Assembly (NCBI RefSeq): GCF_018137965.1
Contig: NZ_CP073100.1
Span: 1,798,001-1,862,000, forward strand
DNA: 64,000 bases
DNA from: Luteolibacter ambystomatis
GTDB taxonomy: Bacteria > Verrucomicrobiota > Verrucomicrobiia > Verrucomicrobiales > Akkermansiaceae
Reading direction: 5' to 3'
In this document: piece after piece, positions 29,517 through 51,626 of the stretch
Numbering within the stretch: position 1 is the stretch's first letter
Layout of the letters: each line of letters starts with the position of its first letter
Program-made: the position numbers and the translations under genes
The notes under the pieces: model-generated
Databases searched by the model: none
What the model was told of the DNA's origin: nothing
What the model saw: the letters and a program-made list of their open reading frames with translations, nothing else

Positions 29517-32500
29517 TCACGGAGTTACCGTGATGTTGTCGAACGTCGAGGCATTCAGCCCGGTGGTGTTGCCGCTGCCCACGGCCAAGCCGATGTAGCA
29601 GTTGCCCGCCATCGTCACCGTCACCGTGCCCACCGTCGTCCAGCTCGTGCCGTTCGTGCTGCTGTAGGCCGTGATGTCATTGCCCACCCGTATCAGGCGC
29701 ACCCATACGTTCGGAGCCGTGGCCGTGCCGCTGTTCGACGTCGTCGTGCTGCCCGCCGTCGCCGTCCGGCGGGTCCAGGTGAAGGCACCCGAACCGTCCG
29801 TGCCGAGGAACACATGGCGCGCATCGACGGCCAGCGTGTCACGGATCATCACCCCGATCCGCGAGCTGGTGCCGGTGTTGGCGAACGTCGGGATGCGCAC
29901 CGTGATGTCGCCATCCGCGGTCAGCGCCTGATACGTGTAGCGGAAGCCGTCCGCCGTTCCTCCCACCACGCCCGCGCCGTTCAGCGTATGGACGTTGTTG
30001 AAGAACTCCGAGCGTCCCGCCACGCCGGTGGTGCCGATGTCCCCCGTGACCCACGGCGAGGGATACGGAGTCACCGTCACGTTGTCGAACGTCGCCGTGC
30101 TGGCCGTGGTGGTGGAGGTGGCGTCCACCGCCAGACCCACCCGGATCGTCGTGCCCATGGTCACCGTTTCCTGGCCGACCTGCGTCCACGTCGTGCCGTT
30201 GGACGACACGTAGGTGGTGAACAGCGAGCCGCAGCGCGTCACCCGCACCCAGTTGTTCGGGTAGGCGTTGAGCGCCGGTCCGGCGATGTGGCTGCTGCTC
30301 GCACCGGTCGTCGCGCGATACTGGTTGGCGAAGCCGTTGGATGGAGTCACCACCATCATCGCGTGGGCGGAACCGGCGGCGGTCGTATCACGCATCATCA
30401 CACCGGCCTTCGCCCAGCCGCCCGTATTGGTCTGCGAGGTCACCCGCGCGCGGATCTCGCCGTCACCGGTCATCGCGGTGGAGGCGTATTGGAACGCATC
30501 AGCCGTGCCCCAGATGTCCGAGCCCGCACCACTGATGGTGTAGAGGCCGGTACCGGAGGTGTAGCCGCTGGAACCCGCGATTCCCGTGCTGCCGATGTCG
30601 CCCGCCGTCCAACCGGACGGCAGAACCCCATAGACCGTGATGTTCATCGTCGCCGTGGCGCTCTGGCCGTCCGGATCGGTGACGCTCACCGAGTAGCTGC
30701 CGGCGCCCGCGTCGCCCGCTGCCGGAGTGCCGGACAGCGTGCCATTCGAGGCGATCGTCAGCCAGGACGGACCGGACACCTTGGCGAAGGTCAGCACGTC
30801 GGTATCCGCATCGGTGGCCTTGCCCACCAGGCTGCCGGAGTAGGCGCTGCCCACCGTGGCATTGCCCATCGTGAACGAGCTGGCGGTGAACGCCGGCGCG
30901 CGGTTGGCGATCAGGCCGTCATGGAGGCCGTTGAGTTCACTGGCGCTCAGCGCGCGGGTGTAGAGGCGGACTTCATCGAGCAGGCCCTTGAAGCGACGGT
31001 TGTTGTCACGCTGGTCCCAGCCGATCGACATCGTGATGGTGGACACCAGGCTCTTGGCGGTGCCGGAGGCGGTGGCCAGCGGATTGCCGTCCACATAGAC
31101 GGTGCCGGTGGTGCCGCTGCGGGTGGCCGCCACGTGGTGCCACTGGTTGTCGTTCACCAGGCCGTAGGTGGACGGCGTGACGATGTCGAACTGGTAGCCG
31201 TTGTTGTAGATGTAGAACTCGACGGTGCCGTTGGACAACACCTGGAGTCCGTATTCGCCGTTGTAGCCGGAGCCCGTCGCGTCGCGCTGCTGGATGATCA
31301 CGCCCGTGCCGGAACCCGGAGCGATCTTCACCCAGGCTCCGACGGTGAAGTCACCGGTGCCGGAGAGCGACGGAGCGGCACCCAGCGTGATGCCGTCATC
31401 GGTGCCGTCGAGGTTCAGCGCGTTTCCTACGATACCTGTCGTGGAAGCCGGACTGCCCGCGATGGTGCCGTCCTGCACGCGGCCGGTGGCGTCATCGGCG
31501 TTGGTGCCGGAGGTTTCGTCGAGCTTCCACCAGCCGCGGAGGTTGGTGTAGATCGAGCCCGGGACGGACGCCACGTCGAATGGCGCGGTGCCCACGGTGA
31601 ACTCCAGGCCGGTCGGCGAGCCGTCGCCATCCGGATCGGCGGCGAGGTCGGGGATGATCACGTTGATGGTCAGCGTGGTTTCGGCATAGGCCCCCGTTCC
31701 ATCGGTGGCGCGCACCGTGAAGACGTTGGCGGTGCCGCCATCGGCGAGTCCCGGCGTGCCGGTGAGCGTGCCGTTGGAAGCGACCACCAGCCAGGACGGG
31801 CCGGACACCTTCGAGTAGGCGAGCGTGTCACCCGCGTCCACATCGCTGGCCGAGCCCGCAATGCTGCTGCCGGTGTAGGGCATGCCGGAGGTGGCGTCCG
31901 GAGCGGTCAGGGTGGTGGCGAAGGTCGGCGCGTCGTTGGTGTTGGCCACCGTGATGTTCAATGCCGTGGTGGCATTCGCGCCCGCCGCATCCGTCACCTT
32001 CACGGTGAAGGCGTTCGCACCGACGTTGCTGTTGTCCGGTGTGCCGGACAGAGCACCGTTGGAAGCCACGCTCAGCCAGGACGGGCCGCCCACCTTGGAG
32101 TAAGTGAGGGTGTCACCCGCATCGATGTCCGCGCCATAGCTGGCGATCGAACCGGAATACGCACTGTCTTCCGTGGCACCGGCACCTGTGATCGGATTCG
32201 CGGTGAAGGCTGGGGCGTCGTTCGTGTTAGTCACCGTGATGTTCAGCGTCGTGGTGGCATTGAGCCCGGCCGCGTCGGTGACTTTCACCGTGAAGCTGTT
32301 CGCCCCCACGTCGCCATTGAGCGGCGTGCCACTGAGCGCACCGTCGGAAGCGACCGACAACCACGACGGGCCGGACACCTTCGAGTAGGTCAGCGTGTCA
32401 CCCACATCGACATCCGCGCCATAGGAGGCGAGGGAGCCGGAATACGCGCTGTCTTCCGTGGCACCGCTGCCCGCTATCGGGTTCGCGGTGAAGGTCGGAG

Positions 32501-35500
32501 CATCGTTGGTGTTGGCCACCGTGATGTTCAATACCGTGGTGGCATTCGCACCCGCCGCATCGGTCACCTTCACGGTGAAGGCATTCGCGCCAACGCTGCT
32601 GTTGTCCGGAGTTCCGGACAGAGCGCCGTTGGAAGCGACCGAAAGCCAGGCCGGACCGGACACCTTCGAGTAGGTCAACGTGTCCCCCACATCGACATCC
32701 GCACCGTAGCTGGCGATGGAACCGGAATACGCGCTGTCCTCGGTGGCACCGGCACCTGTGATCGGATTCGCGGTGAAGGCCGGGGCGTCGTTCGTGTTAG
32801 TCACCGCGATGTTCAGCGTGGCGTCGTCGGTGGCTCCCAGGCTGTCCGTGACGCGGACGATGAAGCTGTTGGCACCGACATCGCTATTGGAGGGAGTTCC
32901 GGTGAGATCGCCGTTGGCGGAAACCGCGAGCCAGGCGGGACCGGACAGCTTTGAATAGCTCAGCGATTCGCCGGCGTCGGGATCGGTGACGCGGCCGGCG
33001 AGGGTACTGCTGTAGGCGGCGTCTTCGGCGACGGCGGGCGTGGACATCGGATCGGCGGTGAAGGCCGGCACGGTGTTATATCGGGTGTAGGCGAGCACCA
33101 GGTTGTTGCCCGACTGCTGGATGGCCCAGGTCCCTTGCGGGGTGGTGAGGCCGCTGGTGTTGATGATGAATTTGTCCGCGCTGAAGCCGGTGATGCCGGA
33201 GGTGGTGGTCGCGAGGACGAACGATGTGCTGGCCTCCGTGAAGTTGGCGAGGGCCACTTCCGACAGACGAATTTCAACCGGGTTGCTCGAGCTCGCGGTG
33301 ATGCTGAGGGAATTGGCCGTCAGTTTGTCCCAACCCGTGCCTGCCGTTCCCGTCCAGTTGGAAATTTCGCAATGGATGGACGAGCTGTCGGCCAGCGTGA
33401 CAGAGTTGTTCACCGTGAAGTTTCCGACTCCGTTGGCACCCGGAGCCAGCGTGCCACCGCCTTGGACGGTGGTCGGACTGGCGAGGCTGCCGGTGCCGGC
33501 AAGCGTGCCGCCCGTGACGGTGGTCGCGCCGGTGTAGGTGTTCGCACCGGTAAGGGTGAGCGTGCCTGTGCCAGTTTTGGTCAACGTGCCGCCAGTGCCA
33601 CTGAGCACTGAATTCACCGTGGCCGCGCGGCCGGAACTGATGTTGAAAGTGTGCGCGCCCGTGTTCGCCAAGGTGATGGGGATATTGGCCGCAATGGTCA
33701 GGTCAGTGCTGGCATCAAAGTTGGCGATCGTGCCGTCATTCCAGTTGAAGGCCAGGGTTTGGGCTCCGCTGCCCGCAATCGATCCCTTTTTGATGTTCTG
33801 CGCGGAAAGGATGCTGCCACCGTTCAGGTTCACGGTTGCGGCCATACTTGTGTATTGGCTGTTCCAGTTCGAGCTGAGCAAATTCAGCGTGCCGATTTTC
33901 AGAGCCGCGCCATTCGTGAGATTGACCGTACCATTGGCAGCCGGCGCATTGGCTCCGCCTGGGTAATAGGCATAGCCCATATTCATCGAGCTTGCCGCCA
34001 ACGATCCGCCATTGAGAGTGAGCACTCCGGTTCCTGTTAGCCCATCTCCGTTGTTTTCGTAGCCGACATACACGTTGGGCGCGGTGGCGACGACCCCGGT
34101 AAGATTCAAACTGCGCGTTCCTGAAGCCGCGCCGGAGGTGGCGTCGCCGATATAGAGATCGCTGGTGTCACTCAAGTTGCCACCGCTGATCGTTCCGGTG
34201 ATGCCGTTACTGAAGGTGAGTTTGCCCAAGGTCTGGCTGGTGCCGCCGAGTGCCAGGATGCCGTTACCGGAGAAGTTGACGGTGGTCGCAATCGGCAAGC
34301 GGTTGGTGCCGCCCGAGAGCGCGAGTGTGCCCGCAGCGATGCTGGTCGTGCCGGTGTAGGTGCTGACGCCTGAGAGTGACAGTGTGCCCGCGCCTGCTTT
34401 CGCCAGGCCTTTCGTGCCCGCGAGCCCCACATTCACCGCAGCCGTCTGGTTGTTCACCGTCATGGTCGGCGTCCCGCTGGTCACATCGAGTGTGAGCGAG
34501 CCGCCGCTGCCGGCGTTAAGCGTCCAGTTGTTGCTCGGTGTGGTGTCTCCAAAGACCAGGTTTCCGATGGTCCAGCCACCGTCCAAAGTCACCGTCGCGT
34601 TCGCGGTGAGGTTCAGGGTGCTAAAGTTTGCCGTTTTGTCCGCACCACTCGCAATGGTGCTGCCGCTCCAGTTTCCGGCATTGAACCAGGAACCGCCCGC
34701 CGCATTGGTCCAGGTGCCATTGCCGGAGGGCAGGTTGACCGTCACTTGAAGCGTGGCGTCTGCAGTGGCCCCGCCCGCGTCGGTGACGCGCACGGCAAAG
34801 GAATTGGTTCCGAAGTCCGAAATTGCCGGTGTGCCGGAGAGCGCTCCATTGGTGCCCACGCTGAGCCATGCGGGGCCGCTCACCTTGCTGAAGGAAAGCG
34901 TGGCGCCCGATTCCTCGTCGCTGGCGTCGCCCGCAAGACTGCCCGAGTATGCACTGCCTTGGGTGGCGTCAGGCTTGGTGATCGTTGCGCTCGTCCATAC
35001 GGGGGCGTCGTTCACACTCGTCACGCTGATATTCAGCGTGGCAGTGGCGATCGCGCCACCCACATCCCAGGCTTTCACGGTGAAAGTGTTCGCGCCAATG
35101 TCGCTGACAGTTGGCGTGCCGGACAGCGTGCCGTCGGCCGCCACGCTGAGCCAGGCAGGACCGGAAAACTTCGAGTAGCTCAGCGAGTCGCCCGCGTCCT
35201 GATCCGTCGCACTGCCGGCGATGGTCGCCGAATAGGCGCTATCCTCCGCGGCTGCCGGCTTGGTGATTGGATTGCTGGTGAAGACCGGAGCATGCGACCA
35301 AACGCCCGACGCATACACCTGGCCAATCTGCTGCGCGGTGAGCGCGCGTGAATACACCCGCACTTCATCCAGGCTGCCCTTGAAGAAACGGCCACCAAGG
35401 GAATCCTGGCCAATGTAAGCGGTCGCGTTGAACGTGTGCGAGGAGTGCGCGACACTGTTCACCACGCTCTGCATCGCCCCGCCCGCAGGCTGCATGTAGA

Positions 35501-38294
35501 ACGTGGCCTTGGTCGGTTCCACGACGACCGCGCAGTAGGTCCAGGTGTTGTCGGGGATCACCAGGCCGCTGGCGAAGTTGTAGGAAGATGCGGCACCATT
35601 CCAGTGGTAGCGCAGCTCGCCATTCGATTTCAGGTTTAACCCCGTCGCGTTGCCGCGCTCGAAGAACACGCCTGCCCAATCGGCTTGCGTGCCGTTGCGC
35701 TTCACCCACGCGGACATGGTCGCGGTGTTGGAACTGAAGTTCAGCGTCGGCACCTGCACGGATTGGTTGGCTCCATTCAGCGTGATGCCGTTCCCGGAAA
35801 ACCCGGACGACCAAGATGCGGCATTCATCAACGTGCCGTTTTTGCCGTTGCCCGAGCTATCGATGGTGGTCGAACCGCTGCCTTCATTCAATTTCCACTC
35901 GGCTTTGGTATCGGACAGGATGTCACGCACATCGACTTGGATCGTTGCGGTGTCCGAATCGCCGTTGTTGTTGCTGATTTTCACGGTGACCGTATTCGGC
36001 CCCACATCGCCTGCCCCTGGAGTTCCTGAAAGGATCCCCGAGGCGTTGACGCTCAGCCACGATGGCCCGTCAAGGATTTCGAAATTCAGCGACGCGGCAT
36101 CACCACTCCAAACCAAGTTCCACAACGATTGGCTCCATGCCTGTCCGGCGAAGACGGAATACTGCATCGTCTCTTCAAAAAATTCAGGGGCACTCCCGCC
36201 AACCTGGGCGACGAGACCCTGCACTTCGGAGGTGTTCAAGGCCTTCGAATAGATCCGCACGTCATCATAGCAATACTTGTCCCTGCTGAAGCAGCCCAGC
36301 GCCAAGGGCGCGCGGCCGTTGAAAATCATGCCATTGGAGGTGAAGGCATTGTTCTTTGTCGCCACCACCTGGCCGTTCACATAGAGCCGGATTTGATTCG
36401 CCGCGCGGTCAAACACCGAGGCGAAGTGATACCAGCGCCCCGGAATCAGGTTGTAGGGAGCGCTGAATGACTGGATGCCGGACGCGCCGTCAAAGATGCG
36501 GTAGTGCATGCCGACGGTTCCGTTCATCGCGTAGATATCCCATCCCACGCTCGTTTCCGGGTGCCACCAGCGCGAGGCGATGTAGGCCATGTCAAACCCG
36601 CCGGGGAAATCCGTGCCCGTGTAACTATCGCTGCGGAACCAGGTGGCAAAGGAGTAATCGCCATCAAGGATGTCGTAATGACCGCCATGACGATTGAATT
36701 CCAGCTCGAATGGCGTGGCGTGCCGGTTATTCACCAAGGGGACCGGCGAGAGACTGCCCGATCCCACCAGCATGCCGCTCCAGTTGGCGTTCTCGATGTC
36801 ATCGTCATTCGGAAAGCCGTTCACGCGGATCCCGTGACCCAGCGGTGAGGTCACCCTGTCGGTGGCGAAATTCGCGCCATTGAGGTCACCCGGCACACCG
36901 CCTGGCACACCGTTGCCAACCGAGGTGCCTGAAGTTTCCTCCATCTGATAGCTCACCATCAGGCCAGGACTGGCAACCTCGACGTGGACGGCATCCCGGG
37001 TCTTCAAGCCCATGGGCGAACTGTCCCGCACCGTGTAGGCAATCATGTCCTTGCCCACGTAGCCGGCCGGCGGGGTGTAGCGCAGTTGGTTGCCGACGAT
37101 CTCCACCGTTCCGCCCGGAACGGTCGTCGTCGAGCAACTGTCGATCACGAGCGTGTCGCCGTTGGAGTCGTGGTCATTGGCCAGCACGTCGATCATGACG
37201 GCGGTGTCCTTCGGCGTGCGTGCGACGTCCACATAGGTGTGGGGAGCCACCGGATCCGTGTAGGGCGCGGCGACCGGCAAATCACCACGGTCGATGGCAG
37301 ATTTCCGCCCGTTTACGAGCATTTTATCGGTGGTGATCGGTCCGAGCGAAGGCTTGTTGCCCCCCATGGTGTCGCACTGGTAAACCAGATGGGAGGCTCC
37401 CCATTGATGGGTGGTTTCATGGTAGAGCGCACCGCCAGCGGCGCCGGCTTGACTTTTGCCAACCCCACCGTTCGCGGAGATGCCTTGCGAACCCCAGACG
37501 GTATCCCAGCGGGCCGTCGCCAGCGGCGCGGATTTCCATGTGTTGGCATAGTCACCCAGGCCCGGCGTCCCGGGATCGGCGGGATAGAAGTTCTCCGTGC
37601 GGACGACGATGGTCGGAGTCACCACGCGGACGAACACGTCGCGGATCATCATCATCTCGAAGACCAGAGCATCGAGTTCATACTTGGCGAGCACGTTGTC
37701 GATGGTCCCTCCGGCGCCGTTGTATGCCGCGACGGTCATATCCATCCCGAGTTCGAATTCCACGATCGAGCCATAGGGCACCCCGTTCGCAGCGGTGCCG
37801 GTCGGCACCTTCGGGCCGATTTTTGCGGGCCCGGTCGAACCATTGATCGGTTGTGCCACTGTCTGCGCCGGCATCGGCGCGGGATTGGTGTCAGGGGTCG
37901 CCAGTTGGCTGGAGACATCCATCCCGTCGACTTGCCAGCGGAAGTTGTGACCCCACGCCATGTCGATGCAGCGGACCCTGAGCTTGTTATTGCCGTCGAT
38001 CGACGCGAGCACGATGGCATTCGGGTTTTCCGTAACGGTGCCGCGGTAAGTGCGCGCTTCCGGGGTGATCACCTCGTAGCCTCCGGCGGAGCTCCATTTG
38101 TAAATGACTGCATCCGCCGTTCTCGCGGTGCGCTTGTGCAGGTTCAAGGTCTGCGTGCCGCCATCCGCAGTGATCGTCAGCTTCAGGTCGTTCGGCAAAG
38201 GAGCCGCGTGCAACCCGGTGACGCCGAGAAGCAGCAGCGCGGCCCGACGAAGCACGACGGGAATCGTGTGCGAGGTTTCTGTGGTGGGTTTCAT
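29517..38294 (-). CDS. Giant secreted metzincin-type protein with LamG, putative-Ig and beta-strand-repeat domains
   Basis: 2925 aa with a signal peptide (AALLLLGVTGLHAAPLP). Residues 40-350 resemble a metzincin protease; H292-E-T-T-H296-Q-W-G-A-S-H302 fits HExxHxxGxxH. Order after that: cadherin-like domain (355-440), LamG 1 (445-710), putative-Ig (He_PIG), LamG 2 (800-1000), two He_PIG, autotransporter-type beta-strand repeats (1190-1740), five He_PIG (1740-2220), LamG 3 (2230-2450), He_PIG, and two C-terminal DUF1349-like jelly-rolls (2558-2925). It is expected outside the cell, as a surface adhesin or glycan-binding protease. Its last ~830 residues are nearly identical to those of the giant gene ending at 41109. 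No secretion-sorting tail is recognised. Confidence 0.85.
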   Translation of the reverse strand: MKPTTETSHTIPVVLRRAALLLLGVTGLHAAPLPNDLKLTITADGGTQTLNLHKRTARTADAVIYKWSSAGGYEVITPEARTYRGTVTENPNAIVLASIDGNNKLRVRCIDMAWGHNFRWQVDGMDVSSQLATPDTNPAPMPAQTVAQPINGSTGPAKIGPKVPTGTAANGVPYGSIVEFELGMDMTVAAYNGAGGTIDNVLAKYELDALVFEMMMIRDVFVRVVTPTIVVRTENFYPADPGTPGLGDYANTWKSAPLATARWDTVWGSQGISANGGVGKSQAGAAGGALYHETTHQWGASHLVYQCDTMGGNKPSLGPITTDKMLVNGRKSAIDRGDLPVAAPYTDPVAPHTYVDVARTPKDTAVMIDVLANDHDSNGDTLVIDSCSTTTVPGGTVEIVGNQLRYTPPAGYVGKDMIAYTVRDSSPMGLKTRDAVHVEVASPGLMVSYQMEETSGTSVGNGVPGGVPGDLNGANFATDRVTSPLGHGIRVNGFPNDDDIENANWSGMLVGSGSLSPVPLVNNRHATPFELEFNRHGGHYDILDGDYSFATWFRSDSYTGTDFPGGFDMAYIASRWWHPETSVGWDIYAMNGTVGMHYRIFDGASGIQSFSAPYNLIPGRWYHFASVFDRAANQIRLYVNGQVVATKNNAFTSNGMIFNGRAPLALGCFSRDKYCYDDVRIYSKALNTSEVQGLVAQVGGSAPEFFEETMQYSVFAGQAWSQSLWNLVWSGDAASLNFEILDGPSWLSVNASGILSGTPGAGDVGPNTVTVKISNNNGDSDTATIQVDVRDILSDTKAEWKLNEGSGSTTIDSSGNGKNGTLMNAASWSSGFSGNGITLNGANQSVQVPTLNFSSNTATMSAWVKRNGTQADWAGVFFERGNATGLNLKSNGELRYHWNGAASSYNFASGLVIPDNTWTYCAVVVEPTKATFYMQPAGGAMQSVVNSVAHSSHTFNATAYIGQDSLGGRFFKGSLDEVRVYSRALTAQQIGQVYASGVWSHAPVFTSNPITKPAAAEDSAYSATIAGSATDQDAGDSLSYSKFSGPAWLSVAADGTLSGTPTVSDIGANTFTVKAWDVGGAIATATLNISVTSVNDAPVWTSATITKPDATQGSAYSGSLAGDASDEESGATLSFSKVSGPAWLSVGTNGALSGTPAISDFGTNSFAVRVTDAGGATADATLQVTVNLPSGNGTWTNAAGGSWFNAGNWSGSTIASGADKTANFSTLNLTANATVTLDGGWTIGNLVFGDTTPSNNWTLNAGSGGSLTLDVTSGTPTMTVNNQTAAVNVGLAGTKGLAKAGAGTLSLSGVSTYTGTTSIAAGTLALSGGTNRLPIATTVNFSGNGILALGGTSQTLGKLTFSNGITGTISGGNLSDTSDLYIGDATSGAASGTRSLNLTGVVATAPNVYVGYENNGDGLTGTGVLTLNGGSLAASSMNMGYAYYPGGANAPAANGTVNLTNGAALKIGTLNLLSSNWNSQYTSMAATVNLNGGSILSAQNIKKGSIAGSGAQTLAFNWNDGTIANFDASTDLTIAANIPITLANTGAHTFNISSGRAATVNSVLSGTGGTLTKTGTGTLTLTGANTYTGATTVTGGTLAGTGSLASPTTVQGGGTLAPGANGVGNFTVNNSVTLADSSSIHCEISNWTGTAGTGWDKLTANSLSITASSSNPVEIRLSEVALANFTEASTSFVLATTTSGITGFSADKFIINTSGLTTPQGTWAIQQSGNNLVLAYTRYNTVPAFTADPMSTPAVAEDAAYSSTLAGRVTDPDAGESLSYSKLSGPAWLAVSANGDLTGTPSNSDVGANSFIVRVTDSLGATDDATLNIAVTNTNDAPAFTANPITGAGATEDSAYSGSIASYGADVDVGDTLTYSKVSGPAWLSVASNGALSGTPDNSSVGANAFTVKVTDAAGANATTVLNITVANTNDAPTFTANPIAGSGATEDSAYSGSLASYGADVDVGDTLTYSKVSGPSWLSVASDGALSGTPLNGDVGANSFTVKVTDAAGLNATTTLNITVTNTNDAPAFTANPITGAGATEDSAYSGSIASYGADIDAGDTLTYSKVGGPSWLSVASNGALSGTPDNSNVGANAFTVKVTDAAGANATTALNITVANTNDAPTFATTLTAPDATSGMPYTGSSIAGSASDVDAGDTLAYSKVSGPSWLVVASNGTLTGTPGLADGGTANVFTVRATDGTGAYAETTLTINVIIPDLAADPDGDGSPTGLEFTVGTAPFDVASVPGSIYTNLRGWWKLDETSGTNADDATGRVQDGTIAGSPASTTGIVGNALNLDGTDDGITLGAAPSLSGTGDFTVGAWVKIAPGSGTGVIIQQRDATGSGYNGEYGLQVLSNGTVEFYIYNNGYQFDIVTPSTYGLVNDNQWHHVAATRSGTTGTVYVDGNPLATASGTAKSLVSTITMSIGWDQRDNNRRFKGLLDEVRLYTRALSASELNGLHDGLIANRAPAFTASSFTMGNATVGSAYSGSLVGKATDADTDVLTFAKVSGPSWLTIASNGTLSGTPAAGDAGAGSYSVSVTDPDGQSATATMNITVYGVLPSGWTAGDIGSTGIAGSSGYTSGTGLYTISGAGSDIWGTADAFQYASTAMTGDGEIRARVTSQTNTGGWAKAGVMMRDTTAAGSAHAMMVVTPSNGFANQYRATTGASSSHIAGPALNAYPNNWVRVTRCGSLFTTYVSSNGTTWTQVGQETVTMGTTIRVGLAVDATSTTTASTATFDNVTVTPYPSPWVTGDIGTTGVAGRSEFFNNVHTLNGAGVVGGTADGFRYTYQALTADGDITVRIPTFANTGTSSRIGVMIRDTLAVDARHVFLGTDGSGAFTWTRRTATAGSTTTSNSGTATAPNVWVRLIRVGNDITAYSSTNGTSWTTVGTVTVTMAGNCYIGLAVGSGNTTGLNASTFDNITVTP
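29530..32010. repeat. Near-identical 2.5-kb segment, copy 1
   Basis: Matches 41122-43602 at a constant offset of 11592 bases with no insertion or deletion seen. In one 120-base block compared by eye there were 4 differences. It covers the C-terminal LamG, He_PIG and both DUF1349-like domains, and ends within an upstream He_PIG unit. Confidence 0.9.
31650..33080 (-). repeat. Tandem He_PIG repeats, 285-bp period
   Basis: Five consecutive 95-residue units of the pattern NTNDAPTFTANPI, then EDSAYSGSIASYGADVDVGD, then [20 protein letters not shown]. The outer two units have diverged, while the central three are close copies at DNA level. Confidence 0.85.
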
Positions 38295-38416: not shown

Positions 38417-38481
38417 GGACGGGTGACGGAAGGCTGAGAATCCGCTTTTCTCCGGGCGGAAGTCGGCCGCATGCTAGCGTG

Positions 38482-41108: not shown

Positions 41109-44100
41109 TTACGGAGTCACCGTGAGGTTGTCGAATGTCGAAGCGTTCAGCCCGGTGGTGTTGCCGCTGCCCACGGCCAGGCCGATGTAGCAGTTGCCCG
41201 CCATCGTCACCGTCACCGTGCCCACATTCGTCCAGCTCGTGCCGTTGGTGCTGCTGTAGGCCGTGATGTCATTGCCCACCCGTATCAGGCGCACCCATAC
41301 GTTCGGAGCCGTGGCCGTGCCGCTGTTCGACGTCGTCGTGCTGCCCGCCGTCGCCGTCCGGCGGGTCCAGGTGAAGGCACCCGAACCGTCCGTGCCGAGG
41401 AACACATGGCGCGCATCGACGGCCAGCGTGTCACGGATCATCACCCCGATCCGCGAGCTGGTGCCGGTGTTGGCGAACGTCGGGATGCGCACCGTGATGT
41501 CCCCATCCGCGGTCAGCGCCTGATAGGTGTAGCGGAAGCCGTCCGCCGTTCCTCCCACCACGCCCGCGCCGTTCAGCGTATGGACGTTGTTGAAGAACTC
41601 GGAGCGTCCCGCCACGCCGGTGGTGCCGATGTCACCGGTCACCCACGGCGAGGGATACGGAGTCACCGTCACGTTGTCGAACGTCGCCGTGCTGGCCGTG
41701 GTGGTGGAGGAAGCGTCCACCGCCAGTCCCACGCGGATCGTCGTGCCCATGGTCACCGTTTCCTGGCCGACCTGCGTCCACGTCGTGCCGTTGGAAGACA
41801 CGTAGGTGGTGAACAGGGAACCGCAGCGTGTCACGCGCACCCAGTTGTTCGGGTAGGCGTTGAGCGCCGGTCCGGCGATGTGGGTGCTGCTCGCACCGGT
41901 CGTCGCGCGATACTGGTTGGCGAAGCCGTTGGATGGAGTCACCACCATCATCGCGTGGGCGGAACCGGCGGCGGTGGTGTCACGCATCATGACACCGGCC
42001 TTCGCCCAGCCCGCGGTATTGGTCTGCGAGGTCACGCGGGCGCGGATCTCGCCGTCACCGGTCATCGCGGTGGAGGCGTATTGGAACGCATCAGCCGTGC
42101 CCCAGATGTCCGCGCCTGCTCCACTGATCGTGTAGAGGCCGGTGCCCGAGGTGTAGCCGCTGGAACCAGCCACTCCGGTGCTGCCGATGTCACCCGCCGT
42201 CCAACCGGACGGCAGAGCGCCATAGACCGTGATGTTCATCGTCGCCGTGGCGCTCTGGCCATCCGGATCGGTGACGCTCACCGAGTAGCTGCCGGTGCCC
42301 GCGTCGCCCGCTGCCGGAGTGCCGGACAGCGCGCCATTCGAGGCGATCGTCAGCCAGGACGGACCGGACACCTTGGCGAAGGTCAGCACGTCGGTATCCG
42401 CATCGGTCGCACGGCCCACCAGGCTGCCGGAGTAGGCGCTGCCCACCGTGGCATTGCCCATCGTGAACGAACTGGCGGTGAAGGCCGGGGCGCGGTTCGC
42501 GATCAGACCGTCATGGAGGCCGTTGAGTTCACTGGCGCTCAGCGCGCGGGTGTAGAGGCGGACTTCATCGAGCAGGCCCTTGAAGCGACGGTTGTTGTCA
42601 CGCTGGTCCCAGCCGATCGACATCGTGATGGTGGACACCAGGCTCTTGGCGGTGCCGGAGGCGGTGGCCAGCGGATTGCCGTCCACATAAACGGTGCCGG
42701 TGGTGCCGCTGCGGGTGGCCGCGACGTGGTGCCACTGGTTGTCGTTCACCAGGCCGTAAGTGGCCGGCGTGACGATGTCGAACTGGTAGCCGTTGTTGTA
42801 GATGTAGAACTCGACGGTGCCGTTGGACAACACCTGGAGTCCGTATTCGCCGTTGTAGCCGGAGCCCGTCGCGTCGCGCTGCTGGATGATCACGCCCGTG
42901 CCGGAACCCGGAGCGATCTTCACCCAGGCTCCGACGGTGAAGTCACCGGTGCCGGAGAGCGATGGAGCCGCACCCAGCGTGATGCCGTCATCGGTGCCGT
43001 CGAGGTTCAGCGCGTTTCCTACGATACCTGTCGTGGAAGCCGGGCTGCCCGCGATGGTGCCGTCCTGCACGCGGCCGGTGGCGTCATCGGCGTTGGTGCC
43101 GGAGGTTTCGTCGAGCTTCCACCAGCCGCGGAGGTTGGTGTAGATCGAGCCCGGGACGGACGCCACGTCGAATGGCGCGGTGCCCACGGTGAACTCCAGG
43201 CCGGTCGGCGAGCCGTCGCCATCCGGATCGGCGGCGAGGTCGGGGATGATCACATTGATCGTCAGCGTGGTTTCGGCATAGGCCCCCGCTCCATCGGTGG
43301 CGCGCACCGTGAAGACATTGGCGCTGCCGCCATCGGCGAGTCCCGGCGTGCCGGAAAGCGTGCCGTTGGAAGCGATGACCAGCCAGGACGGGCCGGACAC
43401 CTTCGAGTAGGTGAGCGTGTCACCCGCATCCACATCACTGGCGGAGCCGGAGATGCTGCTGCCGGTGTAGGGCATGCCGGAGGTGGCGTCCGCCGCCGTG
43501 AGGGTGGTGGCGAAGGTCGGCGCGTCGTTGGTGTTAGCCACCGTGATGTTCAATGCCGTGGTGGCATTCGCGCCCGCCGCATCCGTCACCTTCACGGTGA
43601 AGACATTCGTCCCCACGTCACCGTTGAGCGGCGTTCCAGACAGAGCACCGTCGGAGGTAACCACCAGCCAGGCCGGGCCGCTCACCTTCGAGTAAGTCAG
43701 CGTGTCATCCACATCGACATCCTCGCCATAGCTGGCGATGGAGTCGGAGTAGGCGCTGTCTTCGGCAGCACCGGCACCCGTGATCGGGTTCGCCGTGAAC
43801 GTCGGAGCATCGTTGGTGTTGGCCACCGTGATGTTCAGCGTCGTGGTGGCATTCGCGCCCGCGGCATCGGTCACCTTCACGGTGAAGGCGTTCGCACCGA
43901 CGTTGCTGTTGTCCGGCGTGCCGGACAGCGCACCGTTGGAAGCAACCACCAGCCAGGACGGGCCGCTCACCTTCGAATAGGTGATCGTGTCACCCACGTC
44001 GACATCCGCGCCATAGCTGGCGATGGAGCCGGAATACGCGCTGTCTTCCGTGGCACCGGCACCCGTGATCGGATTCGCGGTAAACGTCGGAGCGTCGTTG

Positions 44101-47100
44101 GTGTTGGCCACCGTGATGTTCAGCGTCGTGGTGGCATTCGCACCCGCGGCATCGGTCACCTTCACGGTGAACGCATTCGCCCCGACATCAGCATTCAGCG
44201 GTGTGCCGGAGAGTGCACCGTTGGAAGCAACCACCAGCCAGGATGGACCGGACACCTTCGAGTAGGTCAGCGAGTCACCCACGTCGACGTCCGCGCCGTA
44301 GCTGGCGATGGAGCCGGAATACGCACTGTCTTCCGTGGCACCGGCACCCGTGATCGGGTTCGCCGTGAACGTCGGTGCGTCATTGGTGTTGGTCACCGTG
44401 ATGTTCAGCGTCGCAGTGCTGTTCGCACCCGCGGCATCGGTCACCTTCACGGTGAAGGCATTCGCACCAACGTTGGCATTGAGCGGTGTGCCGGAGAGCG
44501 CACCATTGGACGCGACCGAGAGCCAGGAGGGGCCGGAAACTTTCGAATAGGTGATCGTGTCACCCACATCGACATCCGCGCCATACGAGGCGAGGGAACC
44601 GGAATACGCGCTGTCTTCGGCAGCACCGGCACCCGTGATCGGGTTCGCAGTGAACGTCGGAGCATCGTTGGTGTTGGCCACCGTGATATTCAGCGTCGTG
44701 GTGGCATCGGCACCCGCGACATCGGTCACCTTCACGGTGAAAGCGTTCGCACCGACGTCACCATTCAGAGGCGTGCCAGACAGTGCGCCGTTGGAAGCAA
44801 CCACCAGCCAGGACGGGCCGGACACCTTCGAATAGGTGATCGTGTCCCCCACGTCGACATCCGCGCCATAGCTGGCGATGGAGCCGGAGTAGGCGCTGTC
44901 CTCGGTGGCACCGGCACCTGTGATCGGATTCGCGGTGAAGGCCGGGGCGTCGTTCGTGTTAGTCACCGTGATGTTCAACGCCGTGGTGGCGTTCGCACCC
45001 GCGGCATCCGTCACCTTTACGGTAAAGGCATTTGCACCCACGTCACCATCGAGCGGCGTGCCGGAGAGCGCGCCATTGGAGGCCACGCTCAGCCAGGACG
45101 GACCGGACACCTTCGAGTAGGTGAGTGTGTCGCCCGGGTTGATGTCGGAACCGTAGGAGGCGATGGAGCCGGAGTAGGCCGCATCCTCGGTGGCATTGCT
45201 GCCATTGATCGGATTCGCCGTGAAGGTCGGAGCCGCGTTCGGCACCGTGAACGACGATGTGACGGAAGTCACCGTACCACCGCTGTAGATCGCCTTCGCG
45301 GTGAAGTTGTGGCTGCCCACCGTAACGTTGTTCGTCCAGGTGATCGAGTGCGGGGCGCTGCTGTCGGAACCGATCAGCGAGCCGTCCACGTAGAACTCGA
45401 CGGAAGTCACGGCCAGATCGGTCGCCACCACGTTCGCGGACACGGTCACGTTCGATCCGGAGGTGAGGTTGCTACCCGCCACCGGCGCGCCCACATTGAT
45501 GCACGGAGGCACCGCGGGAGCGAGGAACTGCGGGAAGATAGCCGTGGCCGGAATGGCCGCGCGGCTGATACCGGGACCCTGCCAGGCCACCGAAGCGTGG
45601 TCACCGCCACCGCCTTCGTTGTGCTGGACCTCCATGTAATACACCTTGCCGGCGGTCAGCGTGAAGGTCGCCGACTTCTGCGAAGACTGCGAATCCCATG
45701 ACTGGAAGCCGGTGTAGCCGCTGACGGTCGCGATCTGCGACTTGTTCGCCGCGGTCTCGTCCGTGCTCAGGTAGAGGCGCGAGGCATCGTCCGAAGCGAT
45801 CCAGAACGTATAGTCGCCGGTCGTGGGCACCTGGATGTAACCGGTGAGCTGGCGCGAGTAGCTGTCCGCCACATCCTGCGGCGTGGTGAACGTCGCGAGC
45901 GAACCGGTGTAGTTGGTCGTGCCGGTCCAGGTGTTGGTGTTGTAGGCCGTGGCACCGGCGAAGCGCTTCTCACTCACACCCGCCACCGCAGGCGGATTGC
46001 ACACCACCTTGAACGAGCCGTCGCCTGTGGCACCCGCGCTGTCGATCGCACGGACGACGAGGTGACGCACGCCGGGATTCGGCAGCGAACCGGGAGTGAC
46101 CAGCGTGACCTGGCCGCTGGCATTGATGGCGAACAAGCCGCCTTCATCACCTGCGACGATCGCCCAACCGGTGATGGTGCGGCCGGAGGCCGGGGTGGCT
46201 GTGGCCGTTCCGAGCACCGTGCCAACGCTCATCGCGGAGGTCGCATTCACCTGGTTTGTGGCTACCACCGGTGCGCTCGCATCGAGAAGCGTGACGGTCA
46301 TCGAGGACGGAGCGGTCAGCGAGGCACCCGAGGGGCTCGACAGCGATACCACGATGCCTTCCGGAGCTTCGCCGATCGCATCGGTGAGGAGGCTCAGCGG
46401 CAGTGACTTCATCTGCTCGCCGCTGTTGAAGGTCAGCGTGCCATTGGCCAGCGAGTAGTCGCTGCCATTGGTCGCCGTGCCGGTGGAGGTGTAGTTCACC
46501 GTGATCGGGGTGGAACCCGCCGGACGATCGAGCAGCACCTGGAGCATCGGCTCGGAGCCGTCGGTTTCCAGGCGGGTGCTCGAAGCACTCAGCATGCGCA
46601 CCGTGCGCGGAGCGGTATCGGTAGGCAAGTAGCTGATCGGCGTGCGGGTGAAACCCGGGCCCTGCCAGGCGACGGAGACATGGTCGCCCCCCCCACCCTC
46701 CTGGTGCTGGACCTCCATGTAGTAGGTCTGGCCTGCCGTCAGCGTGATGTTCGCCGATTTCTGCGAGGCGTTGGCATCCCAGTTCTGGAATGCCGTGTAG
46801 CCGGACACGGTGGCGATCTGCACCTTGTTCGCGGCGGTGGCGTCCGTGCTCAGGTAGAGGCGGGAGGCGTCATCGGAAGCGATCCAGAAATTATACGTAC
46901 CGGTGGTGGGAGCGGTGATCGCACCGACCAAGCGCCGCGAATAGTTGTCGGCGACGTCCTGGGCCGGAGTGAACGAGGTGAGGAAGCCGGTGTAGTCGGC
47001 GTTGACCGTATTCCAGGTGTTATTGGTATAGACGGCGGTGTTGTTCCAGCGCTCCTCGGTGACAAGACCCGAGATGACATCGTCGAAGATCGCGAGAGAC

Positions 47101-50100
47101 TCAGTGATGCGGCCAGTGGTGAAGCTCGCGTTGACCGGATTGATCAACTGGAGCACGGCGGTCTCCATGCCTTCGATATAGCCGTCGTTCTTCACCCGGA
47201 TGCGGAGATTCTTCGTCGTTGTTCCCGGCGGGAAGGTCAACGTGGCGTATGGAATGACCGCGTTGCCATTGGCCGCATCGACGAAGGCCCAGTCGACATC
47301 GTCGCCCATCGCGCTGCCACCGCTGGAGATGCAGTTGACGGTGACGGTGGAGGCGGAGGCGGCGGAGAGCACAACCGGCAGGTCGCGATACTCACCCAGC
47401 GCGCCCGGCTGCTCGCTGAGAGCGATGGCCGCCTGCTGAAAACCGACCGTGACCGGGGCGACATCGTTGTCGGTGATCTGGTAGGTTGCGGAGGCGGGAA
47501 AATCCGGGCTATAGCCGGTGCCCGCAACCACGGTGACGGTCACCGTCTCGGAACCCTCCACCAAGGCGTCGTCCACAGACGTCACCGCGACGGTCGCGAC
47601 CGCCGCTCCGTCCGGAATGACGACCGTGCCACTCAGGTTCGCGTAGTCGGTGCCATTGGTCGCCGTGCCGGAAACCGTATAGTTCACCGTCAGGTCGCCC
47701 GTGGTGCCCACCGCGCGGGAGAAGTAGAAGTTCGCCGCCGTCGGACCAGCTTCCGAAGGCGTCTGGTTGGTGGTCGACACCACCACCCGCTCGCCACCGC
47801 TGTCATTGTCGCGGATCAGCGCGGTGGCCGAGGGATCGTTGTAAACCTTGTAGCCGGTGCCCGGGGTGATCGTGACCACCACCGTCTCGGTCGGCTCGAC
47901 GGTCGTGTCGTTGAGGACCGGGATGATGACCGTCGTGTCGTTGGAGCCGTTCACCGGAACACTGACGGTGCCCGAAAGCGCGGTGTAGTCACTGCCCGCG
48001 GTGGCGGTGCCGCCGACGGTGTAGTTCACCGTGAGATTGCCGTTGCCGGTGCCGATGGTGTGGAAGATGAGCGTGGCGTTCGATCCGCCTTCCGTGCCGA
48101 TTGATCCCGCACGGACGGTGACCAGCACCGGATCGTTGTTGTCCGTGAGGGTGACCGTGCCCTGGTAGGCGGAGCCGATGCTGTAGGCATTGTTGAAGGT
48201 GCTCAGCGAAAGCACCACGGTCTCGGCGGGCTCGCTGATGTCGTCGTCATACGGCGTGATCACCACCGGGGCGCTGGTGGCACCCGCCGCGATCGTCACC
48301 TGTCCGGTGAGGGCGGCGTAGTCGGTGCCGTAGGACGCGGTGCCGGTCAGACCGTAGTAAACGGTGAGCGGAGCGGCGGTGCTACCGGTGCGGGTGACAA
48401 GGAAGGTGCCGGTGTCCGGGCCGCTTTCCGAGGCGTTCGGATCGGGCACGCTCACCGTCACCACCGGCGTGTCGTCATCGGTGATGATGACGCTGGCGGT
48501 GGTGGCGCCGGCATCGCGCAGATACGCGGCATTGGTGGAGATGGTCGCGACCACATCCTCCGGCACTTCGATCGCGCTGTCGTCGGTCGGCGAGACGATC
48601 ACGTCCACCGAGCTTTGTCCTACGGGGATCGTCACCGTGGTCGGCAGCGTGGTGTAGTCGGTGCCATTGGTGGCGGCTCCGCTCCAGGCGACGGTCAGGT
48701 TCAGCGCCGCGGCGGTCGAGCCGGTGCGGGTGAACGTGAACTTGCCGGTATCGGTGCTGGAGGGAGCTTCCGTGGCATACGGATCGGGAGCGGTCACGGC
48801 CACCAGCGGCAGCGTGGTGTCGTTGTCATTGACCGTCATCACCACCGAGTTCGAGCTGCCGGAGACATAGCCGGCGGACGAAGCGAGCTGCAGAGTGATG
48901 GTTTCCGGTCCTTCCGCGGCGGTGTCGTTCACCGCAGCCACCACCACATCGAGCGTGGCCGAGCCCGCGGGGATCGTGAAGGACTTGTAGGAACCGGACG
49001 CCACGTAGGCGGGCGTGAAGGTGTAGTCCGTGGTCATCGTGGCGGTGCCGCCAACAGGCGAAACCAGCACGACGAGATCCGCGGAGGTGTCCCCGGCGCG
49101 GGTCAGGCGGAAGTTGCCATTGGAGCCGCCTTCGGTCGGATCCGCGGTTTTCGTCAAAGTCACCAGGGTCGGCACGGCGCTCGTCCAGTTCACCGTGTTC
49201 GTTCCGGCGACCACCGTGTAGGGATTGGCCGTGGAAGGCGTGAAGGTGTAGCCGGGCAGCGAGGCCGTCAGCGTGGTGGAGCCGGTCGAAAGCCCCGGCA
49301 GCGAATAGGTGCCGTCCGCATTGGTGAAGGCATACTTGCTGCCATTGCCGATCATCACGCCCGCGAGCGGGTTGGTGCCGTCCGTCACCGTGCCGGTGAT
49401 CTGCTGCTTGCCGTGCGAGCCGACATTGATCACCACCGAACGGCGGACCGTGCCACCCTTCATGTCGGAAACGGTGAGCATCGCATTCACCTGCGCCGCC
49501 GTGTTGAATGTGCGGGTGAACACCGCGTTGTTCGTGCCATAGGTGCCGTCATCGAACTGCCAGTAGTAGGCGAGCGGATCGCCATTGGCATCGGATGCGG
49601 TGGCGGTGAAGGTCACGCTGCCACCTGTGGAGATCGTCGTAGCAGAGGCGCCGAGCGTCGCGGTCGGAGCGACATTGCCCGGGAACGGTCCGCGGTTGTA
49701 GACGACATCCAGCGAGACCGGCGTGGTCGCGTTCTTCGCCACCACCGTGAAGTGCTGGTCGGACTCCCAGTCCGAATACGTGCGCCCTTCCCCGATGCCC
49801 GCATCGCCCTTGCCGCCCGGGGTTCCGGGAGTGGTGTCGAGCAAATGGCCGGCGTTGGTGCCCCCCATGCCGTCGTAGATCACCAGCGCCTGGTCCGCGA
49901 GCAGTCCGCCGCGGGCCGGATGATACTCAATGTTGTAGCTGCGGATGCTGTCCTTCGGGACGTTGATGGCGTAACGCTTGCCTTCCTCCAGTTGCGGCTG
50001 GTCGTAGGCATAGATGCGGTAGAGGCCGTTGCCCTTCGGAGCATGGTAGTAGTTCGGCTGGATCCAGCTGAGCCGGCGCTTGCTGATGGTGTTGTAATGG

Positions 50101-51626
50101 CCGCTGAAGCCGTAGGCACCGCCCATCACGTCGTAGCCGTTGCCGTAATTCTGGCTCGCGCCGGTGCCGTAGGCGGTGCCATCGCTGGTGTTCCAATAGT
50201 TCGCGTGGTTGAGGCCGAGCGAGTGGCCGCATTCGTGGTTGAGCACGTCCATGCCGTCCCACGTCACCCACACGCTGCTGCCACCGCCCCAGGAAGATCC
50301 ACTCAGGAGAGGGCCGCCGTTGACACGGACAATCGTGCAGTCGAACTGGCTGGAATCGTAGCCAAGCGCCTTCGCCGCGGCGCGGGAATCGCTGTGCACG
50401 AGGTTCAAGCCCACCTGGTAGCCATCGTTTTCCTTGTCGATGTACCACTTCTGCGTGTGCGGCAGGGTGACCAGCGGCGAGAACGTCGTGGTCTGGGTCA
50501 TCTTGCCGTAAGAAGCCTCGATGTAGTAGCGCGCGTTGTTGCGCATGTCGTTGTAAGCGCTCTCCTCGGTGTTCGGCGCGGAGGTCTGATCCTGGTAGAG
50601 CACGCGGATGTAGAGGCACTTGAAGGCACCGATCGAGCGCGATGCCGTCCCCGGGAAATTGTCCATGAAGAACCCGCCGCCACCGGAACCGCTGGCCTGG
50701 GCATAGGTGCGGTAGTCGTCCTGCAGCACCGCCACGTGCCCGCCCTCACAGAGCGAGATGATCGTTTCACCGATCTGCACCGTCGGCGTGTCCTGGGTCA
50801 CCGTCTCACCGGCGGAGACCGATTCCGTCGTCTTCCCGGACACCGGACAGGTGGTCTGCACCGTGGTCCCTGCGGGAATCTTTTCGCCGACGTCCAGCGG
50901 ACGGACCGCATTCGAAGCCACCGCGAAATCGCCCCCATCCGCATAGCCCTGCAGCGGTGTGCTCGGGATCGACAAGACACTCTGCAACTCGGCAGGAACG
51001 TGGGCCTTGTAGCTCACGCCTCCCGTCACAAAGGAGCGCATCGTCAATGCCTCGCCCGGAACCTCGAGCCCAGGTGCGGGCCGCCCCATGAGAACATTGT
51101 AAGCTCCGACCGCAGACACCGGAGTCTCCAGCTGGCTGGTGATCTCGGCAGGCAGATCCTGCCGCTGCACGCGTGTCACCGCGCGGTCCACCGCCTGGCG
51201 GGGATCGAAGGAAATCAGCGCGCGGTATTCCGGACGGCGGTCGCCTGCGAGACGCGCGCCCTCCTTGGCCAACGCCTTCCGCTCTTCCGGCGTGGCGTTC
51301 TTCCACTGGGCCATCCAGCCGTCGAAGGCATCGAGCTTGGCGAAGTCCGGCTCACGCGGCTTTTCATAGGCCCAGGTTCCGAAGTCCCCCTGGCCGTTCG
51401 CGGCCGGGGCATTCGCCGCGGCTGCCGCATCCCCGGCATCGGTGGCTGGAGCTTGCGGACTACCTGGCTGGCCGGGGGCGGGATGAACGGCTTCCACTCC
51501 GCCCCGGGCATGGGACTTCGCGGTGGAGGGTGTCGACTTAGCGTTGGGATATAGCCTCAGAATGACGGCCGTACCGGCGACCAAGAGCACGCCAAGACAG
51601 ACTATGGAAGATCGGCGGGATTTCAT
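41109..51626 (-). CDS. Giant metzincin-type surface protein with Calx-beta, PA14, putative-Ig and LamG domains
   Basis: About 3505 aa from the ATG at 51626. An uncleaved or cleaved N-terminal hydrophobic segment is VCLGVLLVAGTAVILRLY. The protease domain (about 280-640) has H464-E-C-G-H468-S-L-G-L-N-H474, the HExxHxxGxxH signature. It continues with a PKD domain (650-735), a carboxypeptidase-regulatory-like domain (735-815), six Calx-beta domains (816-1510), PA14 (1514-1670), a seventh Calx-beta, a cadherin-like domain, a second PA14 (1880-2030), an Ig-like domain, seven He_PIG (2130-2790), LamG (2795-3020), He_PIG, and two DUF1349-like domains to the end. It is predicted to be secreted, calcium-dependent and adhesive or glycan-binding. 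It shares its C-terminal ~830 residues with the first giant gene. Confidence 0.87.
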   Translation of the reverse strand: MKSRRSSIVCLGVLLVAGTAVILRLYPNAKSTPSTAKSHARGGVEAVHPAPGQPGSPQAPATDAGDAAAAANAPAANGQGDFGTWAYEKPREPDFAKLDAFDGWMAQWKNATPEERKALAKEGARLAGDRRPEYRALISFDPRQAVDRAVTRVQRQDLPAEITSQLETPVSAVGAYNVLMGRPAPGLEVPGEALTMRSFVTGGVSYKAHVPAELQSVLSIPSTPLQGYADGGDFAVASNAVRPLDVGEKIPAGTTVQTTCPVSGKTTESVSAGETVTQDTPTVQIGETIISLCEGGHVAVLQDDYRTYAQASGSGGGGFFMDNFPGTASRSIGAFKCLYIRVLYQDQTSAPNTEESAYNDMRNNARYYIEASYGKMTQTTTFSPLVTLPHTQKWYIDKENDGYQVGLNLVHSDSRAAAKALGYDSSQFDCTIVRVNGGPLLSGSSWGGGSSVWVTWDGMDVLNHECGHSLGLNHANYWNTSDGTAYGTGASQNYGNGYDVMGGAYGFSGHYNTISKRRLSWIQPNYYHAPKGNGLYRIYAYDQPQLEEGKRYAINVPKDSIRSYNIEYHPARGGLLADQALVIYDGMGGTNAGHLLDTTPGTPGGKGDAGIGEGRTYSDWESDQHFTVVAKNATTPVSLDVVYNRGPFPGNVAPTATLGASATTISTGGSVTFTATASDANGDPLAYYWQFDDGTYGTNNAVFTRTFNTAAQVNAMLTVSDMKGGTVRRSVVINVGSHGKQQITGTVTDGTNPLAGVMIGNGSKYAFTNADGTYSLPGLSTGSTTLTASLPGYTFTPSTANPYTVVAGTNTVNWTSAVPTLVTLTKTADPTEGGSNGNFRLTRAGDTSADLVVLVSPVGGTATMTTDYTFTPAYVASGSYKSFTIPAGSATLDVVVAAVNDTAAEGPETITLQLASSAGYVSGSSNSVVMTVNDNDTTLPLVAVTAPDPYATEAPSSTDTGKFTFTRTGSTAAALNLTVAWSGAATNGTDYTTLPTTVTIPVGQSSVDVIVSPTDDSAIEVPEDVVATISTNAAYLRDAGATTASVIITDDDTPVVTVSVPDPNASESGPDTGTFLVTRTGSTAAPLTVYYGLTGTASYGTDYAALTGQVTIAAGATSAPVVITPYDDDISEPAETVVLSLSTFNNAYSIGSAYQGTVTLTDNNDPVLVTVRAGSIGTEGGSNATLIFHTIGTGNGNLTVNYTVGGTATAGSDYTALSGTVSVPVNGSNDTTVIIPVLNDTTVEPTETVVVTITPGTGYKVYNDPSATALIRDNDSGGERVVVSTTNQTPSEAGPTAANFYFSRAVGTTGDLTVNYTVSGTATNGTDYANLSGTVVIPDGAAVATVAVTSVDDALVEGSETVTVTVVAGTGYSPDFPASATYQITDNDVAPVTVGFQQAAIALSEQPGALGEYRDLPVVLSAASASTVTVNCISSGGSAMGDDVDWAFVDAANGNAVIPYATLTFPPGTTTKNLRIRVKNDGYIEGMETAVLQLINPVNASFTTGRITESLAIFDDVISGLVTEERWNNTAVYTNNTWNTVNADYTGFLTSFTPAQDVADNYSRRLVGAITAPTTGTYNFWIASDDASRLYLSTDATAANKVQIATVSGYTAFQNWDANASQKSANITLTAGQTYYMEVQHQEGGGGDHVSVAWQGPGFTRTPISYLPTDTAPRTVRMLSASSTRLETDGSEPMLQVLLDRPAGSTPITVNYTSTGTATNGSDYSLANGTLTFNSGEQMKSLPLSLLTDAIGEAPEGIVVSLSSPSGASLTAPSSMTVTLLDASAPVVATNQVNATSAMSVGTVLGTATATPASGRTITGWAIVAGDEGGLFAINASGQVTLVTPGSLPNPGVRHLVVRAIDSAGATGDGSFKVVCNPPAVAGVSEKRFAGATAYNTNTWTGTTNYTGSLATFTTPQDVADSYSRQLTGYIQVPTTGDYTFWIASDDASRLYLSTDETAANKSQIATVSGYTGFQSWDSQSSQKSATFTLTAGKVYYMEVQHNEGGGGDHASVAWQGPGISRAAIPATAIFPQFLAPAVPPCINVGAPVAGSNLTSGSNVTVSANVVATDLAVTSVEFYVDGSLIGSDSSAPHSITWTNNVTVGSHNFTAKAIYSGGTVTSVTSSFTVPNAAPTFTANPINGSNATEDAAYSGSIASYGSDINPGDTLTYSKVSGPSWLSVASNGALSGTPLDGDVGANAFTVKVTDAAGANATTALNITVTNTNDAPAFTANPITGAGATEDSAYSGSIASYGADVDVGDTITYSKVSGPSWLVVASNGALSGTPLNGDVGANAFTVKVTDVAGADATTTLNITVANTNDAPTFTANPITGAGAAEDSAYSGSLASYGADVDVGDTITYSKVSGPSWLSVASNGALSGTPLNANVGANAFTVKVTDAAGANSTATLNITVTNTNDAPTFTANPITGAGATEDSAYSGSIASYGADVDVGDSLTYSKVSGPSWLVVASNGALSGTPLNADVGANAFTVKVTDAAGANATTTLNITVANTNDAPTFTANPITGAGATEDSAYSGSIASYGADVDVGDTITYSKVSGPSWLVVASNGALSGTPDNSNVGANAFTVKVTDAAGANATTTLNITVANTNDAPTFTANPITGAGAAEDSAYSDSIASYGEDVDVDDTLTYSKVSGPAWLVVTSDGALSGTPLNGDVGTNVFTVKVTDAAGANATTALNITVANTNDAPTFATTLTAADATSGMPYTGSSISGSASDVDAGDTLTYSKVSGPSWLVIASNGTLSGTPGLADGGSANVFTVRATDGAGAYAETTLTINVIIPDLAADPDGDGSPTGLEFTVGTAPFDVASVPGSIYTNLRGWWKLDETSGTNADDATGRVQDGTIAGSPASTTGIVGNALNLDGTDDGITLGAAPSLSGTGDFTVGAWVKIAPGSGTGVIIQQRDATGSGYNGEYGLQVLSNGTVEFYIYNNGYQFDIVTPATYGLVNDNQWHHVAATRSGTTGTVYVDGNPLATASGTAKSLVSTITMSIGWDQRDNNRRFKGLLDEVRLYTRALSASELNGLHDGLIANRAPAFTASSFTMGNATVGSAYSGSLVGRATDADTDVLTFAKVSGPSWLTIASNGALSGTPAAGDAGTGSYSVSVTDPDGQSATATMNITVYGALPSGWTAGDIGSTGVAGSSGYTSGTGLYTISGAGADIWGTADAFQYASTAMTGDGEIRARVTSQTNTAGWAKAGVMMRDTTAAGSAHAMMVVTPSNGFANQYRATTGASSTHIAGPALNAYPNNWVRVTRCGSLFTTYVSSNGTTWTQVGQETVTMGTTIRVGLAVDASSTTTASTATFDNVTVTPYPSPWVTGDIGTTGVAGRSEFFNNVHTLNGAGVVGGTADGFRYTYQALTADGDITVRIPTFANTGTSSRIGVMIRDTLAVDARHVFLGTDGSGAFTWTRRTATAGSTTTSNSGTATAPNVWVRLIRVGNDITAYSSTNGTSWTNVGTVTVTMAGNCYIGLAVGSGNTTGLNASTFDNLTVTP
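41122..43602. repeat. Near-identical 2.5-kb segment, copy 2
   Basis: Partner of 29530-32010, direct orientation, offset 11592. Above 43602 the two genes diverge abruptly into different He_PIG unit variants. Confidence 0.9.
43500..45240 (-). repeat. Tandem He_PIG repeats, 285-bp period
   Basis: Six consecutive 95-codon units, very similar at DNA level, with small changes such as SNGALSGTPLNGDVGANAFT against GTPDNSNVGANAFT. The number of units differs from that in the first giant gene, which suggests expansion and contraction by recombination. Confidence 0.85.

Follow-up and report, generated by a model that had tools for sequence, protein, structure and literature searches.

Two neighbouring giant genes, A and B, and a third, C, encode proteins that end in a nearly identical block of 840 residues, and the silent sites of the three copies form a mosaic in which the most similar pair changes along the block. 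We favour the explanation that these tails are kept alike by repeated gene conversion and act as a binding tail on different metalloproteases, and we give it, taken as a whole, a probability of about two in three. A and B lie in the window analysed here, a stretch of 64,000 nucleotides (positions 1,798,001-1,862,000) from a one-contig genome of 5,321,988 bases, which its nearest named relatives and its domain content assign to a verrucomicrobial bacterium; positions below are those of the window unless stated otherwise. If the explanation is right, the three genes allow the maintenance of one near-identical binding tail on enzymes with different catalytic domains to be measured in an organism other than the well-studied pathogens.

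Layout and catalytic domains of genes A, B and C

Both genes are read from the minus strand, and their reading frames are uninterrupted. Gene A (29517-38294) was delimited from its ORF and translation, Pfam matches and a Foldseek search with a model of its N-terminus. It encodes a protein of 2925 amino acids, which runs from a Sec-type N-terminus through an M12B/ADAM-like metalloprotease domain, two LamG domains, PATR repeats and an He_PIG array to the shared end. The first part of the protein (37260-38294, minus strand) comprises, by alignment, model and Foldseek, a signal-type N-terminus, a prodomain-like region and a metzincin-type domain. The latter has both the HExxHxxGxxH site (HETTHQWGASH) and the Met-turn (CDTMGG) of M12B/ADAM-type metzincins, and the H, E, H and M of these motifs are invariant in an alignment of ten homologues, with the third H nearly so. 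The N-terminal model resembles a prodomain plus metzincin, and its best Foldseek match is ADAM17 (E 4.9e-6), at a pLDDT of 72 that is low around the active site. No Pfam peptidase family matched A, a sequence search of its N-terminus against the PDB returned no match, and BLASTP found no similarity between A and the M12 protein of locus L012.

Gene B (41109-51626, minus strand) encodes about 3505 amino acids when read from an ATG, or 3525 amino acids from an in-frame TTG at 51686, 60 bases upstream. An M6-like protease domain is followed by PKD, Calx-beta and PA14 domains, an He_PIG array and the shared end. The peptidase domain (49617-50726, minus strand) contains the zinc motif HECGHSLGLNH and gives a partial match to the NCBIfam model TIGR03296 (E 1.2e-6); because its score of 28.6 bits is below the curated cut-off of 110.8, we refer to B as M6-like only. 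Gene C, which lies outside the window, encodes 4293 amino acids and is a paralogue of B along its full length. The sequence-only reading had described the N-terminal halves of A and B as unrelated apart from an HExxHxxGxxH site, and this description holds: A is M12B/ADAM-like, B is M6-like, and both carry the motif.

Several other features of the window were recorded. At 9413-9768, a 114-bp unit (38 codons) is repeated in tandem 3.1 times, within a possible ORF at 9197-9829. Beyond the start of B, an 85-bp direct repeat (52256-52340 and 59212-59296; 92% identical) flanks genes for a 3-keto-disaccharide hydrolase and a regulator. The left side of the window may be a mobile region, with a phage-integrase-like protein containing DUF6538 (3489-5264) and an IS1595-type transposase (6895-7824).

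The shared C-terminal block

By blastn, 29486-32819 and 41078-44411 are 92.9% identical. Within this match, the near-identity first noticed from the sequence alone is confirmed: 29530-32010 and 41122-43602 agree at 97% (~3.5% difference) with a constant offset of 11,592. The 840-residue block itself occupies 29520-32039 in A and 41112-43631 in B, both on the minus strand, and over the last 827 codons the two copies differ with a dS of 0.106 and a dN of 0.012. The number of such proteins must, however, be raised from two to three, as the end of C (G000:C1:1713828-1716308), beyond the window and 113 kb from A, is a third copy at 96%. A search of the 5.32-Mb one-contig genome for further such ends yielded C as the near-identical copy and, among the large proteins examined, six others with diverged DUF1349 ends; no other match of >400 bp in this genome was above 73%, and plasmid records gave a single 66-bp match only. 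The remainder of A (32820-38294; 5.5 kb) has no near-identical copy elsewhere in the genome.

The edge of the block is abrupt and falls within an He_PIG unit, as had been proposed. Dense differences between A and B begin 2492 nucleotides before the stop (position 32011), in the unit at residues 2025-2119 of A, and the A/C edge is sharper, with 587 nt free of differences and then dense differences from 32040. Beyond the edge, A/B similarity persists at about 80-88% across the adjoining He_PIG repeats to about 32,820. Four Pfam-matched He_PIG units of A hold the edge (31653-32792, minus strand; residues 1835-2214, with starts at 1835, 1930, 2025 and 2120). On the other side of the block, the 31 nt that lie 3' of the A stop (29486-29516, minus strand) match the flank of B (41078-41108) and not that of C. 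Transport of the end by a mobile element was considered and dropped, given that the edges are an He_PIG unit and a stop codon and that no element genes were seen there. A simple deletion between the two direct repeats, which are separated by 11.6 kb, is predicted to join the N-terminus of B to the end of A.

The interval between A and B contains a 76-bp inverted relic (40688-40763, plus strand), which matches the DUF1349 end of all three genes at 77-78% identity. It also contains a 75% repeat (38532-38956 and 39556-40003), the second copy of which is apparently truncated and adjoins an ORF at 39129-40565 (plus strand) whose end resembles, by eye, a GntR/LacI-type regulator.

Silent-site mosaic and probable gene conversion

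Across the last 840 codons of A, B and C there are 156 variable sites, 107 of which are at third codon positions, and any two copies differ at 94-128 sites. A run test was restricted to codons that are synonymous across the three copies, 95 of which are variable. Along the block, the identity of the agreeing pair changes in only 33 runs, compared with 63.6 expected, and the lowest value among 20,000 shuffles was 46. The longest identical tracts of the three pairs lie at different positions: A and C are identical, with B differing, over 587 nt (31453-32039, minus strand; a length reached in 0 of 5000 codon shuffles); B and C over 494 nt (42760-43253 in B coordinates, minus strand; again 0 of 5000); and A and B over 254 nt (29656-29909, corresponding to 41248-41501 in B, minus strand; 23 of 5000). 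These shuffles assume independent codons and a constant rate along the block, but the agreeing pair switches from stretch to stretch, which a change of rate alone does not give. The count of synonymous changes along the segments, which had been suggested as a check, thus reveals a clear mosaic.

Divergence between B and C is similarly informative. Their dS is 0.50 outside the block (about 2,665 codons) and 0.141 inside, and within the block it ranges from 0.026 in the LamG domain to 0.367 in the first DUF1349 domain. Being low relative to the rest of the genes and uneven within, it indicates that B and C split before their copies of the block became alike, and that the age of the block varies along its length. 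The copies therefore combine the two marks of concerted evolution, namely tracts that are more alike than their flanks at silent sites and a mosaic of agreeing pairs. It had been argued that many equally diverged paralogues would speak against a special relationship of these ends; instead, protein identity over the DUF1349 pair is 94-98% among the three copies and 42-66% in the others.

We suggest that repeated homologous recombination homogenises the 3' ends of A, B and C over about 2.5 kb, with conversion tracts that would begin inside He_PIG repeats and run as far as the stop codon or close to it; the underlying process is presumably conversion of the RecA type. Two further candidates were rejected. 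Antigenic variation would involve promoterless donor copies, and no silent cassettes were found, the copies above 90% being the three complete gene ends only. Selection on the DNA itself was dropped, as silent changes between A and B are frequent exactly where A and C are perfectly identical.

Could a single recent duplication of the 3' end, a module swap followed by uneven selection or mutation, have produced the same picture? A and B adjoin and have the 31 nt past the stop in common, and the unrelated N-terminus is found in A only, as it would be in a chimera. One duplication followed by constraint would, however, give the same order of pairs throughout, unlike the mosaic, which is apparent from silent sites alone and in which the closest pair differs by stretch. 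Moreover, C also has the block, and B and C diverge far more outside it than inside. We consider such a swap quite unlikely as the full account. Where the sequence-only reading offered gene conversion or a recent swap, the three-copy mosaic favours the former; the latter is insufficient alone, although a swap probably founded the arrangement seen in A.

Exchange with the corresponding alleles of other strains, rather than within the genome, would yield a similar patchwork, as seen in the giant genes of Apilactobacillus (PMC12863079). Import of this kind, acting on a single locus, would not on its own produce identity between loci, so that some exchange between loci would still be needed, and we regard between-strain recombination as an unlikely source of the mosaic. 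An assembly or polishing artefact at the repeat is very unlikely. It is true that short reads polish 2.5-kb repeats poorly, but the genome is one contig, the 94-128 differences per pair are mostly real silent changes in three open frames, and the flanks and stop codons differ among the copies. Repeated gene conversion within the genome is thus the process we favour.

Domains and fold of the shared end

The block opens with two He_PIG units, of which the edge cuts the first, and continues with a Laminin_G_3 domain, a further He_PIG unit and two DUF1349 domains. In A, all on the minus strand, the Laminin_G_3 domain spans 30915-31535 (Pfam, with the start set by motif), the following He_PIG unit 30630-30905 (Pfam), the first DUF1349 domain 30066-30614 (PF07081) and the second, which forms the extreme C-terminus, 29520-30059 (Pfam). 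PF07081 matches two stretches in each protein, with scores of 46.6 bits (A) and 44.8 bits (B) against a gathering cut-off of 32.4. An AlphaFold2 model of the pair (mean pLDDT 92) has the ConA-like beta sandwiches of solved family members. The second domain matches 3mep (Z 22.4, rmsd 2.0 over 166 residues), and the model matches 3o12 with a Z of 21.7.

More distant structural matches are the C-terminal domains of GH43 xylosidases (Z about 17-19) and CBM66 (Z about 16), a module that binds fructan. The end of A and B has its fold in common with all of these and its sequence family with DUF1349 only; it differs from them in that DUF1349 is here present in tandem at the C-terminus of metalloproteases. 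Papers on the function of DUF1349 gave seven mentions of it, all outside titles and abstracts; the ligand of the domain now becomes a testable question.

A probable binding tail on different proteases

DUF1349 ends the chain in nine large proteins among those examined, which have different N-termini, in agreement with the proposal that the end has a shared role. In addition to A, B and C, these are an M60 peptidase (L010), an M6-type protein (L011), an M12-type protein (L012), two DUF3472 proteins (L014 and L016) and an A-like protein (L017), all six with more diverged ends. L016 has a single DUF1349; in the other eight proteins the pair is the extreme C-terminus, with zero residues between it and the stop.

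This terminal position is what an anchor or secretion signal would show, as is the fact that, where DUF1349 is internal (L013 and L184), another tail of the F-x-R-L type ends the chain. Such a role concerns function only and would be compatible with gene conversion, but we think it doubtful. Some paralogues have DUF1349 at internal positions, and proteins of other phyla have several copies of it in tandem, placements that point to a binding module which can be put at the end rather than to a dedicated sorting signal. The domain folds like lectin-type domains, no known sorting-signal model was matched, and the type IX, PEP-CTERM and LPXTG models in particular were absent from the NCBIfam matches of A and B. 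Among the anchor, secretion and binding roles originally put forward, binding is therefore favoured and a sorting signal disfavoured.

A classical type Va autotransporter was also considered for these proteins. PATR repeats are present, but no beta-barrel family matched and the C-terminus is DUF1349.

The F-x-R-L type tail is itself found on many other giant proteins, here and in relatives (13457-16144; L184:6022-15456; L013:4871-10654; L176:2605-13725). None of the proteins examined combines it with a terminal DUF1349. NCBIfam has no model for it, and it may be a sorting signal.

The best reading of the shared end, judged from its modelled fold, is a tail that binds substrate, probably glycan, and is common to different metalloproteases. 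LamG and the two ConA-like DUF1349 domains would tether the metalloprotease domains to a common polymer, for which a glycan or glycoprotein is the likeliest candidate, with long Ig-like stalks carrying the catalytic domains. The products are most likely exported proteases that a lectin-like tail at the end of such stalks keeps on a single type of polymer; glycan binding, location at the surface, export of the proteases and a benefit from sharing the tail are each presumed in this scheme. Nearby genes encode a GH20 enzyme with an F5/8-type domain and a sialic acid acetylesterase, which would fit the breakdown of glycoproteins or complex glycans and are linked to A and B by position only. It is conceivable, though on balance improbable, that recombination in He_PIG repeats is a standing route by which a single glycan-targeting tail passes between unrelated metalloproteases of this verrucomicrobial genome, such that the enzymes are retargeted together and their catalytic domains stay separate.

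Origin of the end

Of the 39 genomes searched, 21, including that of B itself, encode homologues of its M6-type region. A congener protein of 3886 amino acids (L174 of genome G002) has the same order, with an M6-like domain, PATR, He_PIG, LamG, He_PIG and DUF1349, and thus the same LamG/He_PIG/DUF1349 end. Genomes G002 and G012 encode several M6-type giants, and several contigs break inside such genes. A-type N-termini are rarer, and the nearest, in G029 and G018, have no visible DUF1349 end. In the simplest history, the M6-type proteins (B and C) probably carried the end first, and A probably acquired it through recombination in the He_PIG array. The 31 nt past the stop that A and B have in common make the neighbour B the probable donor. 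Within the same genome, the A-like protein L017 (845 amino acids) has its own DUF1349 pair, 42% identical, and so the ancestor of A may also have had one that was later overwritten.

Comparison with known systems

Verrucomicrobiota such as Akkermansia have M60-type and related mucin-directed peptidases. The M60 protein of the present genome (L010) resembles A and B in ending in a similar DUF1349 pair, whereas A is M12B-like, B is M6-like and both are far larger.

The gingipains RgpA and Kgp are cysteine proteases of one family. Together with HagA, they resemble the present case in that C-terminal adhesin regions are shared by secreted proteins that otherwise differ, the two gingipains being the proteases among them. 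In Porphyromonas gingivalis, identical repeats in these large regions of RgpA, Kgp and HagA recombine and obstruct assembly (PMC5266723). There, the very end of the protein is a type IX secretion signal, whereas the tail of A and B is LamG plus DUF1349, in which no type IX signal was found, and the enzymes here are two kinds of zinc metalloprotease. C25 protease and type IX C-terminal domains are absent from A and B (Pfam, NCBIfam), and the likeness is one of arrangement only.

The Giant1-5 genes of Apilactobacillus kunkeei are neighbouring giant extracellular genes with intragenic recombination and a common type of C-terminal domain, which are the features that they share with A and B (PMC12863079). 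Recombination among them takes place between strains, and no recent conversion was observed between the giant genes within a genome (PMC12863079). In contrast, the tails of A, B and C appear to have been converted within a single genome.
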